From positions 1,860,001 through 1,924,000 of the forward strand of contig NZ_CP095412.1 of NCBI RefSeq assembly GCF_023016265.1: a DNA stretch of 64,000 nt, in the 5' to 3' direction. Below, in pieces: positions 58,602 to 63,445 of this stretch. The notes under the pieces are model-generated. The model was given only the letters and a program-made list of their open reading frames with translations, was not told the DNA's origin and ran no database searches. The position numbers were made by a program, and so were the translations under genes. Within the stretch, counting starts at the first letter, position 1, and each line of letters starts with the position of its first letter. The DNA comes from Blastococcus sp. PRF04-17 (GTDB lineage Bacteria; Actinomycetota; Actinomycetes; Mycobacteriales; Geodermatophilaceae).

Positions 58602-58689
58602 GTCAGCGACCGTAGGCCGCAACCGGTGCTACCGACACAATGGCCCCCCGACGGGGCACCGTGCCCGGCCCGTCCGACGAGGAGAGCTC

Positions 58690-59130
58690 ATGACCGCAGG
58701 CAGGCACGCATCCCCCGACCCCGCCCCGGGCGACGAGCCGACGGTCGGTTCGCTCATGCGGTCGCCGGCCGTCACGGTGGAGGCCGACGCGCACGTCGCG
58801 TCGGCCGCCTACCTCATGAAGCACTCGGGCGCCGGGGCGCTGGTCGTCACCGCCGACGACCTCGGCGTGGTCCCGATCGCCGTCCTCACCGACGTCGAGG
58901 TCAGTCACGCGGTCGCCGACGGCCAGGATCCGAACGAGACCCGGATCAACCAGCTCCGGCTGCCCCGGCCGGTCGCCATCCACCCGGGCACGTCCGTCAC
59001 CGAGGCCGCCGAGCAGATGCTCGGGATGTCGCTGCAGCACCTGCCGGTGGTGGACGACGGCCGGCTGGTCGGGGTCGTGGGCGTCACGGAGGTCTGCCGC
59101 GCGCTGCTGACCCGGGGCCGCTCCGTGTAG
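58690..59130 (+). CDS. Two-CBS-domain protein
   Basis: A 146-residue protein consisting of a CBS pair: VGSLMRSPAVTVEADAHVASAAYLMKHSGAGALVV (in parts) with VPIAVLTDVEVSHAV, then LPRPVAIHPGTSVTEAAEQML with HLPVVDDGRLVGVVGVTEV. CBS pairs bind adenine nucleotides and usually serve as energy sensors. GGAG lies just before the ATG. It is convergent with the cyclase gene. Its partner is unknown. Confidence 0.9.
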   Translation: MTAGRHASPDPAPGDEPTVGSLMRSPAVTVEADAHVASAAYLMKHSGAGALVVTADDLGVVPIAVLTDVEVSHAVADGQDPNETRINQLRLPRPVAIHPGTSVTEAAEQMLGMSLQHLPVVDDGRLVGVVGVTEVCRALLTRGRSV

Positions 59131-59142
59131 TCCCGGGGTGGG

Positions 59143-60474
59143 TCAGCCCGACACGGCCGAGACCGGCCAGGTGCCGGGGACGCCGCGCAACGCCCGGATG
59201 CCGCGGTCGTCGAAGCGCAGGCCCGATCCCACCACCAGGTCCTTGACGGTGCCGGAGACGAGCACCTCTCCCGGCGCGGCCTCGGCCATGATGCGCGAGC
59301 CGATGTGCACGGCGAGCCCGGAGATCCCGCCGCCGGCCTCCCGCTCCACCTCGCCCGCGTGCACGCCGGCCCGGATCTCCAGCCCGAGCCCGCGGGCGGC
59401 CTCGCGGACGGCCAGGGCGCAGCGGATCGCCCGTACCGGTCCGGTGAACGTGGCGAACAACCCGTCGCCGGCGACGTCGACCTCGGTGCCGCCGTACCGG
59501 GACAGCTCGCGCCGCGCCGCGGCGAGGAGGCTTGCCCGGGTGGCCGCCCATGCGACGTCTCCGATTCTGGCGAGCAAGGCGGTGGATCCCACGACGTCCA
59601 CGAACAGGACGGTGGCGAGCACCCGGTCGGGGACACCGGGCGCCGGACGGGAGCCGGTCAGGAACTCCTCGATCTCGGCGAGCGGTTGGTCGATGTCGCC
59701 CACGAAGAACAGGTGGTCGTCGCCGTCGAGCTCGACGAACCTGGCCCCGGGGATGTGGTCGGCCAGGTAGCGGCCGATCTCGATGGAGATGAGGCGGTCA
59801 CCGCGCCGCTGCAGCACCAGGGTCGGCACGTGGATGGCGCTCAGGATGTCCCGGACGTCGGCGTCCGGGTAGAGCGAGAACAGTCGCCGCGCCATGCCGG
59901 GGCTGGCCCCCATGCGCTGCAGCCCGCCCCACCACTCGCGGAGCGCCGGATCGCGGGCGCGGCTGGGTGCCCAGGCCTTCAGCGCGCGCCCCTCGCCCCA
60001 GGACTCCACCAGGCCGTCGAACAGATGCATCATGGCTGCCTCGTCGGCGCCGTACGGATAGCCCTCCGCGCGGGTCAGGCGCGGTGCGGCGCCGTAGAGC
60101 ACGACTGCCCGTGTCCGCTCGGGGTGCTGGGCGGCGAAGAGCATCGTCATCGCGCCACCCTCGGAGATCCCGAGCAGCGCCGGGCGCTCGAACCCGGCGG
60201 CGTCCATCACCGCGCGCAGGTCGTCGACCCGCTCCTCGAGGGTCGCGGGCCCGGCCACCGGGTCGGACAGGCCCGTGCCCCGCTTGTCGAAGATGAGCAA
60301 CCGGCTGAACGAGGCCACCCTCTCGAGGAACCGGCGGAGATCGGGTTGCTCCCACGCCCAGTCGAGGTGGGAGACGAATCCCGGGGTCATCACGACCTCG
60401 AGCGGGCCGGACCCCACGACCTGGTAGGCGATCGCGAGGTCGCCGCTGCGGGCGTACCGCGTGCGGGGCCTCAC
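59143..60474 (-). CDS. Alpha/beta hydrolase-adenylate cyclase fusion (Rv1900c/LipJ-like plan)
   Basis: A 443-residue protein. Residues 1-265: alpha/beta hydrolase with LLIFDKRGTGLSDP, nucleophile elbow LLGISEGGAM, and the final histidine in GDDHLFFVGD. Residues about 275-443: class III cyclase with metal aspartates in LFVDVVGSTALL and VAGDGLFATF, and VHIGSRIMAEAAPGEVLVS. The purine-specifying lysine before AGDG is aspartate, so substrate choice or activity is uncertain. The GTG overlaps the stop of the cNMP-binding kinase gene, making it the last gene of a coupled operon. Confidence 0.88.
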   Translation of the reverse strand: MRPRTRYARSGDLAIAYQVVGSGPLEVVMTPGFVSHLDWAWEQPDLRRFLERVASFSRLLIFDKRGTGLSDPVAGPATLEERVDDLRAVMDAAGFERPALLGISEGGAMTMLFAAQHPERTRAVVLYGAAPRLTRAEGYPYGADEAAMMHLFDGLVESWGEGRALKAWAPSRARDPALREWWGGLQRMGASPGMARRLFSLYPDADVRDILSAIHVPTLVLQRRGDRLISIEIGRYLADHIPGARFVELDGDDHLFFVGDIDQPLAEIEEFLTGSRPAPGVPDRVLATVLFVDVVGSTALLARIGDVAWAATRASLLAAARRELSRYGGTEVDVAGDGLFATFTGPVRAIRCALAVREAARGLGLEIRAGVHAGEVEREAGGGISGLAVHIGSRIMAEAAPGEVLVSGTVKDLVVGSGLRFDDRGIRALRGVPGTWPVSAVSG

Positions 60475-61808
60475 CGGCGTCGCGGCAGCTCGACGCGGGC
60501 GCGCGTGACGCCGTCGGCGGAGGTGAGGGCCAGCCTTCCCTTGTGCCGCTGCGTGACCACCGCGAGCGCGGTCGCCAGCCCGAGGCCGGTGCCCTGGCCG
60601 ACGGGCTTGGTGGTGAAGAACGCGTCGAAGACCCGGTCGAGCACCTCCGGCGGCACGGTCGGCCCGGTGTTCTCGACGTCCACGACGACGGAGTCCTCGG
60701 TCCCGCGCGTCCGCACGGTGACCACGCCCTCGTCCCCGACCGCCGCCAGCGCGTTGTCGAGCAGGTTGGTCCAGACGGTGGCGAGGTCGGCGGCCCACCC
60801 CTCGACCGTCTGCGGGTCGGGGTCGAGGTCGCGCTCGATCCGCACGCCGGCCGGCACCTTGTGCCGCAGGAGCACGAGCGCCTGCTCGAGGCCGGCGTGG
60901 ACGTCGACCTGCGTGAGGGACTGGTCGGCGGCGTAGGCCAGGGGGCGGACGCCGGACACGATGCGCGACAGGTACTCCGCCCCGGCCGAGACCTCGTCGA
61001 GGATCGCCCGGATCTCCCCGGCCCGGGCGAGCTCCCGCACCGCCGCACCGCGACGGTCGGCCGGGAGCCCCTGCAGGGCACGACCGAGCTCCGCCGGGTC
61101 CACGCCGTGCCGGGCCAGCTCGGCGGCCGCGCGCGCGGCCCCCGGCACGTCCGCGAGCACGCGGGCGATGGCGTCCTCGGCGTCCATCCGGGCCAGTGGG
61201 TCCTCGGGTGCGTCTCGGTCCCCGAGGAGCGTGTGCAGCGGCCCGGCCTGCCCTTCCCCACCCAGCAGCGCCCGGAGCCGGGCAGCTCCGCGCTGGACGG
61301 CGGACGCCGGGTTGTTGACCTCGTGCAGCAGCCCGGCGGCCAGCGCGCCGAGGGCGGCCATGCGCTCGTGCTGGCGGACCAGGCCCTCCTCGCGGTCGAG
61401 CCGGCGCGTGGTGGCGACCAGCAGCGCACGGGCGGACCGGGGATGGCTCAGCAGCCGGTCCAGCGCGTCGGCAGCGATGCGCTGCACCCGCGCGGGACCG
61501 CGTGCCCGGACCGTCGCCGACCGGGGTCGGCCGTGCACGATGCCCAGCTCGCCGATGAGGTCGCCCGGGCCGCACACGTTGAGCAGCAGCGGCGTACCGC
61601 CGGAGTCGCGGGTGACCTCCAGCTCCCCCTCGGTCACGACGTACATGGCGTCCGGGGGCGAGCCCTCGGTCAGGAGCTCCTCGCCGGGCGCCAGCGACAC
61701 CGAGCGGCTGGTGGCGGCGAGGTCGGCCACGTCGTCGTCCGGCAGCTCCGCGAAGAGCCGGGAGCGGCGGAGGGCGCCGCTGACCTCCGGCTCCGGGGTC
61801 GTGGTCAC
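60471..61808 (-). CDS. Histidine kinase with N-terminal cyclic-nucleotide-binding domain
   Basis: A 445-residue soluble kinase. Residues 12-130 are a cNMP-binding domain (GEELLTEGSPPDAMYVVTEG, phosphate cassette GELGIVHGRPRSATV with the conserved Glu and Arg). The H-box is ALAAGLLHEVNNPASAV; the ATPase has NLLDNALAAV, VENTGP, FFTTKPVGQGTGLGL. No membrane segment. The GTG overlaps the stop of the REC-reductase gene before it and its own stop overlaps the cyclase gene, so all three are coupled. It probably phosphorylates the receiver fused to the reductase. Confidence 0.9.
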   Translation of the reverse strand: MTTTPEPEVSGALRRSRLFAELPDDDVADLAATSRSVSLAPGEELLTEGSPPDAMYVVTEGELEVTRDSGGTPLLLNVCGPGDLIGELGIVHGRPRSATVRARGPARVQRIAADALDRLLSHPRSARALLVATTRRLDREEGLVRQHERMAALGALAAGLLHEVNNPASAVQRGAARLRALLGGEGQAGPLHTLLGDRDAPEDPLARMDAEDAIARVLADVPGAARAAAELARHGVDPAELGRALQGLPADRRGAAVRELARAGEIRAILDEVSAGAEYLSRIVSGVRPLAYAADQSLTQVDVHAGLEQALVLLRHKVPAGVRIERDLDPDPQTVEGWAADLATVWTNLLDNALAAVGDEGVVTVRTRGTEDSVVVDVENTGPTVPPEVLDRVFDAFFTTKPVGQGTGLGLATALAVVTQRHKGRLALTSADGVTRARVELPRRR

Positions 61809-63445
61809 CGGCCGGCGAGCCGCTCGTGGGCGAACCGCACCGCCATCGCGCCCTCCCCCACGGCCGAGGCGATCCGCTTGACCGAGCCGTGCCGGACGTC
61901 GCCGGCGGCGAACACCCCTGGCACGGAGGTCTCCAGGGGCAGCGGCGGAACGGCCAGCGGCCAGTCGGGTGGCGGCAGCCCCAGGTCGTTCCCGGTCAGC
62001 ACGAAGCCGCGGTCGTCCCGGCGCACGACGCCGTCCAGCCAGCTGGTCCGCGGTGCCTGCCCCACGAACACGAAGAGTGCGTCGGCGGGGACCTCCCGCT
62101 CGTCGGTGCCGGTCCGCAGCCGGAGCCGCTCCAGGCGGCGGGAGCCCATGGCTCCGGCGACCTCGGTCCGGTACTCGACGGTGATCGTCTCGGCTGCCTC
62201 GATCCGGTCGATGAGGTACTTCGACATCGTGCTGACCAGGTCCCCGGAACGGACCAGCAGGGTCACGTCCGCGGCGAACTGCGAGAGGAACAGGGCGGCC
62301 TGCCCGGCCGAGTTGCCGCCCCCGACCACGAACACCCGCCCGCCGGCGTGGTCGACGCCCTCGGCCCGGCCGGCGCCGTAGTACACGCCGACCCCGGTCA
62401 GCTCGGCGGCGCCGGGCACGTCGAGGGTCCGGTAGTTCACCCCGGAGGCGATCAGCAGGGTGGATGCGCTCACCTCGGTGCCGTCGGTCAGGCGGACGAC
62501 GGTGTACGGGTCCTCCCGGCGCAGGCCCGCCACCTCGGCGGGGACCAGGATCTCCGCGCCGAACCGGATGGCCTGCTCGCGGGCCCGCAGCGTGAGGTCC
62601 GCGCCGCTGAGCCCGACGGGGAAGCCCAGGTAGTTCTCGATGCGGCTGGTCGTGCCGGCCTGACCGCCCGGTGCGTTGCACTCGAGCACCAGCGTCGACA
62701 GCCCCTCCGAGGCGCCGTAGACGCCCGCGGCCAGGCCGGCGGGACCCGCGCCGGCCACCACGAGGTCGTAGGCGGACCGCTCGGCCCGCACCTGCAGTCC
62801 GATGCGCTCGGCGACGGTGTGCAGGTCGGGCCGGACGAGCACCTCGCCGTCGTCGGTGACCATGACGGGCAGGGCGCCGGCGTCGGTCCGGGCCGCGTCC
62901 AGCAGCAGCCGGGCCTGGGGGTCGGACTCCAGCTCCAGCCAGCGGTACGGGACCAGGTTGCGGGCCAGGAACTCGCGCAGCTCGTGGGTGCTCGCCGACC
63001 AGCGGTCGCCGATCACGCGCAGGTTGGCCGACGGCGCCGGGCGCCGCCAGGTCTCCAGCAGGTCGTCGAGCACCGGGTAGAGCCGCTCCTCCGGCGGGTC
63101 CCAGGGCTTGAGCAGGTAGTGCTGGACCTCGGCGTCGTTGATCGCCCGGATCGCCGCGTCGGTGTCGGCGTAGGCGGTGAGCAGCACGCGGCGGGCGTCG
63201 GGGTAGAGCTCGCGCGACGCGGCGAGGAACTCGGTGCCGGTCATCCCCGGCATCCGCTGGTCGACCAGGAGCAGCGCCACGTTCTCGTCGCGCAGCCGGA
63301 GCCGCCGGAGCACGTCGAGCGCCTGGTCACCGGAGGACGCCGCGACGACCTGGTAGCGCTCGGCGTAGCGGTCGCGCAGGTCGCGTTCGACGGCGGCCAG
63401 CACCGGCCCGTCGTCGTCCACGGCGAGCAGAACCGGTCGGCTCAT
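61805..63445 (-). CDS. Response regulator fused to a thioredoxin-reductase-like FAD enzyme
   Basis: A 546-residue fusion. Residues 1-130 are a receiver (LAVDDDGPVLAAV, phosphoacceptor in LLLVDQRMPGMTG, LLTAYAD, YLLKPWDPP). About 140-225 is a thioredoxin-like segment without a CxxC. From about 230 comes the FAD/NADPH domain (DLVVAGAGPAGLAAGVYGASEG, ENYLGFPVGLSG, VFVVGGGNSAGQAALFL, VPGVFAAGDVRHG). The reductase CxxC is replaced by an ECNAPGGQAG region, so ordinary disulfide chemistry is doubtful. First gene of the three-gene operon. Confidence 0.92.
   Translation of the reverse strand: MSRPVLLAVDDDGPVLAAVERDLRDRYAERYQVVAASSGDQALDVLRRLRLRDENVALLLVDQRMPGMTGTEFLAASRELYPDARRVLLTAYADTDAAIRAINDAEVQHYLLKPWDPPEERLYPVLDDLLETWRRPAPSANLRVIGDRWSASTHELREFLARNLVPYRWLELESDPQARLLLDAARTDAGALPVMVTDDGEVLVRPDLHTVAERIGLQVRAERSAYDLVVAGAGPAGLAAGVYGASEGLSTLVLECNAPGGQAGTTSRIENYLGFPVGLSGADLTLRAREQAIRFGAEILVPAEVAGLRREDPYTVVRLTDGTEVSASTLLIASGVNYRTLDVPGAAELTGVGVYYGAGRAEGVDHAGGRVFVVGGGNSAGQAALFLSQFAADVTLLVRSGDLVSTMSKYLIDRIEAAETITVEYRTEVAGAMGSRRLERLRLRTGTDEREVPADALFVFVGQAPRTSWLDGVVRRDDRGFVLTGNDLGLPPPDWPLAVPPLPLETSVPGVFAAGDVRHGSVKRIASAVGEGAMAVRFAHERLAGR

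Follow-up and report, generated by a model that had tools for sequence, protein, structure and literature searches.

Within the window (the whole 64,000-nucleotide stretch of Blastococcus sp. PRF04-17 DNA analysed here), three consecutive genes encode a REC-flavoprotein (RTR), a cyclic-nucleotide (cNMP)-binding histidine kinase (HK), and an alpha/beta hydrolase-class III cyclase (HC). Direct readings of domains, residues, gene overlaps, co-occurrence, and linkage make it fairly probable that the locus specifies a cyclic-nucleotide-gated two-component module, in which a cyclase would act on HK, and HK on the flavoprotein RTR. Part of the support for this reading is a correlation, across genomes, between the state of the nucleotide pocket of HK and the presence of a neighbouring class III cyclase. 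The preliminary description of this DNA had proposed a closed three-gene circuit with a thioredoxin-type redox output; as set out below, that proposal is partly supported, inasmuch as its cyclase-to-kinase step has comparative-genomic support, and its thioredoxin-type output and its closed loop do not.

The phosphate-binding cassette of the cyclic-nucleotide-binding (CNB) domain of HK, GELGIVHGRPRSATVRA, fits the cAMP-type pattern GE[L/M]...R.A, that is, it is intact. The residue after the cassette Arg is Ser, which leaves cAMP vs. cGMP undecided; Ser likewise follows the cassette Arg in E. coli CRP. RTR-HK pairs are widespread in the window's class, mostly in a form whose cAMP pocket has decayed. 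The genomes surveyed are a sample; among them, 99 of 197 class genomes have a match to RTR (E ≤ 1e-80), and some of the matches span only approximately residues 139-544 and lack REC. In a first alignment of HK sequences (n = 61), the cassette is intact in four, corresponding to the window clade, and not intact in the other 57. Matches to HK are found in 16 of 112 family genomes at E ≤ 1e-65, with the cassette intact in 15 and, in G268, lost beyond the end of a contig, and in 16 of 396 phylum genomes, the window genome counted, at E ≤ 1e-58. For ten HKs compared, CNB scores are 60-87 bits in the five with intact cassettes and 26-42 bits in the five with decayed cassettes; four of the latter five pass the CNB cut-off, and the fold therefore persists in decayed-pocket kinases. 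The window genome itself (G000; 4.59 Mb on a single contig) contains a second RTR-HK pair (G000:C1:519089-522159; L067:9089-12183; 54% and 37% identity) that has a decayed cassette, with SGAVQFYFGDRLEQRYPATV in the cassette region, and no cyclase nearby, and that thus provides a natural control. At the phylum level, RTR precedes a run of three CNB-type kinases at loci L217, L219, and L222, and the cassette is altered in a different way in each kinase. A single 995-aa frame in G269 (L205:8036-11020), considered as an RTR-HK fusion, was rejected: it contains a frame change near the RTR end, either a sequencing error or real.

RTR-HK loci were picked by similarity to HK or RTR, not by cyclase, and their flanks were searched with a cyclase profile built from three window-genome cyclases and iterated once, with cyclase frames taken from stop to stop, each locus counted once, and at least 4 kb of context required on both sides. 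The results show that a class III cyclase frame lies within 4 kb at 18 of 21 intact-pocket loci (17 of 20 without the window) and at 0 of 57 decayed-pocket loci. The same contrast is observed inside the window's family, with 14 of 14 intact vs. 0 of 15 decayed loci, as counted from the rows. Rows dropped because context, RTR, or the cassette was missing comprise, for intact pockets, L068, L208 (which has cyclases at 444 and 3176 nt), and L210, and, for pockets decayed or of unassigned state, L075, L077, L079, L112, L207, L218, L220, and L223. Ten linked cyclase frames were run on Pfam, and all ten exceed the PF00211 cut-off. A clustering of the complete set of neighbouring genes produced heterogeneous groups that included shadow frames and was set aside.

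An abundance of cyclases in these genomes does not explain the linkage. Each of the 14 family genomes has two to seven PF00211 matches, and an even spread would place a cyclase within 4 kb at approximately 0.13 of the 14 family loci, as compared to the 14 observed. In G437, the single PF00211 match in 4.6 Mb is located 1.7 kb from RTR. In 26 genomes with decayed pairs, no PF00211 match lies, by coordinates, within 4 kb of those pairs, and three of the 26 have no match at all. These comparative results, together with the distribution of HC orthologues described below, make it likely that the cyclase product acts on HK, as had been suggested.

The second argument for the module comes from the identities of the cyclases. 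Clustered at 60% domain identity, the cyclases linked to 19 loci make up 12 groups, four of which occur in the window's family, and we conclude that partners have therefore been exchanged at one conserved pair. With gene distances measured between open frames, six family genomes have AAA-type cyclases convergent with HK at 8-39 nt, and five have a cyclase in a 377-887-aa frame convergent with HK at 332-477 nt. An AAA-TPR-type cyclase is upstream of RTR in G000 (4.1 kb) and G008 (2.2 kb) and downstream of HK in G272. HC follows HK in the window, and G254 and G266 have the order HC-RTR-HK. That the type and the position of the cyclase have changed repeatedly while the pair stayed conserved is a stronger argument than p-values. 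The AAA-TPR-type cyclase maps in the window genome to G000:C1:1928523-1929068, just past the window end, and in G008 to L069:14274-17849, with one unassigned gene between it and RTR; the 677-aa protein of L069 has no NCBIfam match at E 1e-20.

Several observations weigh against a cyclic-nucleotide-gated module. As regards linkage, loci L211, L214, and L215 have an intact pocket and no cyclase within 4 kb; the locus of G004, divided between two contigs, is without a cyclase over 8.7 kb on its downstream side and 12 kb on its upstream side; and L218, in which the cassette is altered and no RTR was detected next to the kinase, nevertheless has cyclases at 277 and 3424 nt. As regards statistics, the Fisher value for the pocket-cyclase association, 6e-15, is not phylogenetically independent; p-values overstate independence because two changes on an RTR tree of 83 rows are enough to explain the pocket trait; and an independent-pairs test finds one or two pairs and is without power. 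As regards HC, the GTGA overlap between HK and HC occurs, among the loci examined, in the window genome only; HC adjoins the pair only in G000 and, in the other order, in G254 and G266; HC is elsewhere in the genome, unlinked, in G012, G272, G311, and G316; and the split locus of G268 has no cyclase beyond HK, its HC lying right at the end of a different contig. As regards residues, the positions of the substrate Lys and transition-state Asn, canonical in class III cyclases, are occupied in HC by Asp and His, against Asn and His in Rv1900c, and the G1 box of HK, VENTGPTVP in the window, G004, and G008, has Asn where decayed-pocket kinases have Asp.

Alternatively, HC could be a passenger, inserted by chance downstream of an RTR-HK pair that works alone. 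In agreement with this, a CBS-domain gene directly follows HK in same-genus genomes G004 and G008, where the window has HC, and the position of HC is therefore a lineage-specific gain or loss; moreover, HC in G012 lies 1.3 Mb from the RTR-HK pair. Against it, HC orthologues (at least 69% identity) occur in 8 of 112 family genomes, in three genera, and are confined to genomes with a close HK orthologue (8 of 16 vs. 0 of 96 others; Fisher 2.7e-8, uncorrected for kinship), and HC adjoins RTR in two more genomes in the other order. We consider chance insertion quite improbable. A related candidate, that HC is a private accident of the window genome, given that G004, G008, and G012 lack HC beside HK, was dropped, since other cyclases are present at 14 of 14 family clade loci that have full context and HC is upstream of RTR in two. 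A lack of conserved co-occurrence had been named as grounds for rejecting the circuit; it applies to the exact gene order of the window, which is absent in its nearest relatives, and not to the module, whose parts co-occur strongly with varying cyclase partners. Across the class, 24 of 197 genomes carry an HC-like gene; in the 11 of these, besides the window genome, that have an RTR match as well, the HC-like gene is, by contig and coordinates, never next to RTR, an exclusion that is incomplete for the drafts that make up most of them. A scan of contigs with HC gave one distant match. An HC-like gene of approximately 50% identity at G310:C152:5807-7057 has two in-frame TGA codons and is a probable pseudogene, and L209:11373-12470 (G437), downstream of RTR-HK, gives a weak HC match (106 bits) and no cyclase-profile match and is perhaps a lone hydrolase.

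The residues of HC are consistent with a cyclase of the Rv1900c type. The match to Guanylate_cyc (PF00211) is only just over the cut-off (23.6 vs. 21.9 bits), and the cyclase domain (residues 280-438) aligns over its full length to the Rv1900c cyclase domain, 1YBT, the best solved relative (E 3.3e-42). The metal Asp pair (FVDVVGST, AGDG) and the catalytic Arg (AVHIGSR) are present, and these motifs are common to all eight HC orthologues (L145 read directly). HC resembles Rv1900c/LipJ (PDB 1YBT, 1YBU) in its two-domain order, in having His for the usual Asn, and in keeping both metal Asp residues and the Arg; His at this position is, according to the available part of PMC4886424, compatible with activity in Rv1900c. 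HC differs from Rv1900c/LipJ in reading VDVAGDG vs. VNTAGDG (Asn for the Asp of HC), in a gene that overlaps a kinase gene, and in scoring, over residues 3-440, 416.9 bits against the LipJ equivalog NF058673, below its cut-off of 800.

In HK, the motifs HEVNNPA (with the phospho-acceptor His), NLLDNA, and GTGLGL, which we take to be the H, N, and G2 boxes, are intact. Within the window clade, the window, G004, G008, G012, and several others have Asn at the G1 position, and L198-L202 and L206 have Asp; because Asp and Asn alternate within the window's own clade, the Asn looks tolerated. A kinase with a regulatory role only (pseudokinase or phosphatase), in which cyclic nucleotide would gate dephosphorylation of RTR, could account for the replaced G1 Asp; the intact H, N, and G2 boxes and the alternation of Asp and Asn argue against such a kinase, and we regard it as distinctly unlikely. 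The link from kinase to REC domain is backed indirectly, because the RTR-HK pair is conserved, with the GTGA junction present also in 12 of 13 other family clade loci, and because the acidic pair, phospho-Asp, Thr, and Lys of REC are all present in 15 of 15 clade rows. Phosphotransfer between HK and RTR is, as a prediction, very likely.

The output domains of RTR do not have the residues of a thiol enzyme. Residues 138-222 are without a Pfam match when the whole protein is searched; a profile built from 11 sequences of this middle domain matches mycoredoxin Rv3198.1 (E 1.1e-6), and five of the 11 members, searched singly, match Pfam Glutaredoxin (best E 1.4e-4), the window member not being among the matches listed. 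The active site of the middle domain reads WSASTH in the window RTR vs. WCGYCL in Rv3198.1, and no Cys is present at this site in 87 of 87 aligned RTR rows. The flavoprotein domain keeps the FAD and NAD(P)H Rossmann motifs (GAGPAGLAAG, GGGNSAGQAA, GDVR), and the position of the CxxC site of thioredoxin reductase (TrxR) reads VYYGAG (context GVYYGAGRAEG), and CxxC is missing there from all 86 rows that show this position. In one row, L122, a CxxC occurs some residues beyond the TrxR site. Cys256 of the window RTR is shared by all 15 clade rows and by none of the 72 others, and the position of its His366 is a single Cys in 60 of these 72 and in no clade row. Because both thiol sites are absent, RTR is, by its residues, neither a thioredoxin reductase nor a thiol reductase. 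The description of RTR as REC fused to a thioredoxin-reductase-like flavoenzyme stands as regards REC and the TrxR-like fold; it calls for a qualification as regards the missing CxxC, and it did not mention the extra, cysteine-less middle domain. A genuine thioredoxin-type reductase tuned by phosphorylation, the output proposed there, would agree with TIGR01292 being the best NCBIfam profile for RTR (E 3.9e-62); yet the score is 209.7 bits vs. a cut-off of 343.45, and the missing Cys residues at both sites make such an output extremely improbable. It is moderately probable that the flavoprotein is a non-thiol NAD(P)H device.

The direction of signalling could also be the reverse, with HK and RTR controlling the cyclase, RTR sensing NAD(P)H/flavin state and phosphorylation, and cAMP acting on HK only as feedback, or acting via CRP. 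HC precedes RTR in G254 and G266, and a second RTR type in G191 and G231 (L235, L236; another family) runs by a GTGA overlap into the gene of a class III membrane cyclase, and HK has no match beside it; both facts favour this direction. The membrane cyclase is a relative of the cyclases in 377-887-aa frames described above (44% over 432 aa against L070 and 55% over 425 aa against L209), and G117 has, by coordinates, the same spacing of second RTR type and cyclase as G191 and G231. Among 12 RTR loci without an HK match examined, three (L159, L235, L236) have a cyclase within approximately 1 kb; this link is partial and the sample unfair, because two of the three were fetched for a known cyclase and the flanks are short. 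By itself, control of the cyclase by HK and RTR leaves the tracking of HK pocket integrity with cyclase linkage unexplained, and we consider it unlikely. As to the closed circuit previously proposed, nothing in the data shows feedback from RTR to the cyclase.

According to the cyclic-nucleotide-gated module that we prefer, HC in the window, or another class III cyclase in relatives, would make cAMP, or possibly cGMP; the cyclic nucleotide would bind the intact cassette of HK and shift its autokinase/phosphatase balance; HK would exchange phosphate with the REC domain of RTR; and REC would control the flavoprotein, whose output would be not thioredoxin reduction but either the passing of electrons to a partner or a protein-protein switch that responds to NAD(P)H and phosphorylation. 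Nucleotide binding, phosphotransfer, signal direction, and output are steps that we infer. More tentatively, and with some doubt, we suggest a recurrent actinobacterial module whose class III cyclase, with hardly any constraint on its architecture, would act through a CNB histidine kinase on a REC-flavoprotein without both thiol sites, so that cyclic nucleotide would control an NAD(P)H-flavin device, in which the kinase pocket would decay where the cyclase partner is missing, and in which the cyclase may form a two-way loop with RTR.

The features of the locus are collected in Table 1. The three genes, their coordinates, order, and strand, and the GTGA joining each to the next are as first described: the RTR end CGG TGA contains the HK start GTG ACC, and the HK end CGG TGA contains the HC start GTG AGG. 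Pfam matches over cut-off are Response_reg and Pyr_redox_2 for RTR, cNMP_binding and HATPase_c for HK, and Abhydrolase_1 and Guanylate_cyc for HC, and these, with the match to 1YBT, confirm the earlier assignments of HK as a soluble histidine kinase with a cNMP-binding domain and of HC as an Rv1900c-like hydrolase-cyclase.

Table 1. Features of the RTR-HK-HC locus, in window positions.
Feature	Position	Strand	Basis
RTR: REC, cysteine-less mycoredoxin-like domain, TrxR-like FAD/NAD(P)H flavoprotein; 546 aa, start ATG	61805..63445	-	Pfam and motifs
REC domain of RTR, approximately residues 1-125	63071..63445	-	Pfam, conserved residues
Glutaredoxin/mycoredoxin-like middle domain of RTR, residues 138-222	62780..63034	-	profile match
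TrxR-like flavoprotein domain of RTR, residues 225-546	61808..62773	-	FAD and NAD(P)H motifs; CxxC absent
GTGA overlap RTR/HK, 4 nt	61805..61808	-	junction reading
HK: soluble cNMP-binding histidine kinase; 445 aa, start GTG	60471..61808	-	Pfam
Phosphate-binding cassette of HK, PGDLIGELGIVHGRPRSATVRA, residues 81-102; Arg96 equivalent to PKA Arg209	61503..61568	-	motif definition in the available part of PMC2246266
GTGA overlap HK/HC, 4 nt	60471..60474	-	junction reading
HC: alpha/beta hydrolase-class III cyclase, Rv1900c/LipJ-like; 443 aa, start GTG	59143..60474	-	Pfam, structure-sequence match
Cyclase domain of HC, approximately residues 280-441	59152..59637	-	alignment to 1YBT
CBS-domain gene beside HC	58657..59130	+	directly after HK in same-genus G004, G008

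The components have known relatives. The CNB-HisK family (Kannan et al., 2007; PMC2246266), as presented in the available excerpts, likewise has CNB before the HisK ATPase, with the printed cassette GELSLLTGGPRSATVRA vs. GELGIVHGRPRSATVRA in the window HK; those excerpts give no partner gene or cyclase link. The 'Mycobacterium-like' REC-thioredoxin reductase response regulators (PMC5847659) share with RTR the fusion of REC to a TrxR-like domain, whereas a missing CxxC, a mycoredoxin-like domain, a cNMP kinase, and a cyclase go unmentioned in the accessible part of that text. The Bact_Pyrredox family, in the same excerpts of PMC2246266, joins a cyclic-nucleotide domain to a pyridine-nucleotide flavoprotein, but by direct fusion and with tandem CNB domains, whereas the window system comprises two proteins that would be connected by phosphate transfer. 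Cyanobacterial DDOR/FFTR (PMC9025218, in part) are, like RTR, divergent relatives of NADPH-thioredoxin reductase, but keep CxxC and are without the NADPH site, the opposite of RTR. In the portions of the open-licence literature covered, we recognised no account of a cyclase/CNB-kinase/REC-flavoprotein module, of a pocket-cyclase rule, or of the missing thiol sites. CNB-HisK, REC-TrxR, and hydrolase-cyclase proteins have thus each been described already; the locus would combine them in a two-component system with cyclic-nucleotide input and flavoprotein output.

Targets of cyclic nucleotides in actinobacteria have been sought mostly among CRP-type regulators, and our proposal names a histidine kinase as such a target. 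It offers a sequence rule, that is, a kinase with an intact cassette should respond and a kinase with a decayed cassette should not, and it provides matched test and control proteins in one genome: the window HK and the L067 kinase (L067:10744-12183). In addition, it draws attention to a widespread response regulator of the 'thioredoxin reductase' kind whose sequence is without the thiol sites that such an enzyme needs.

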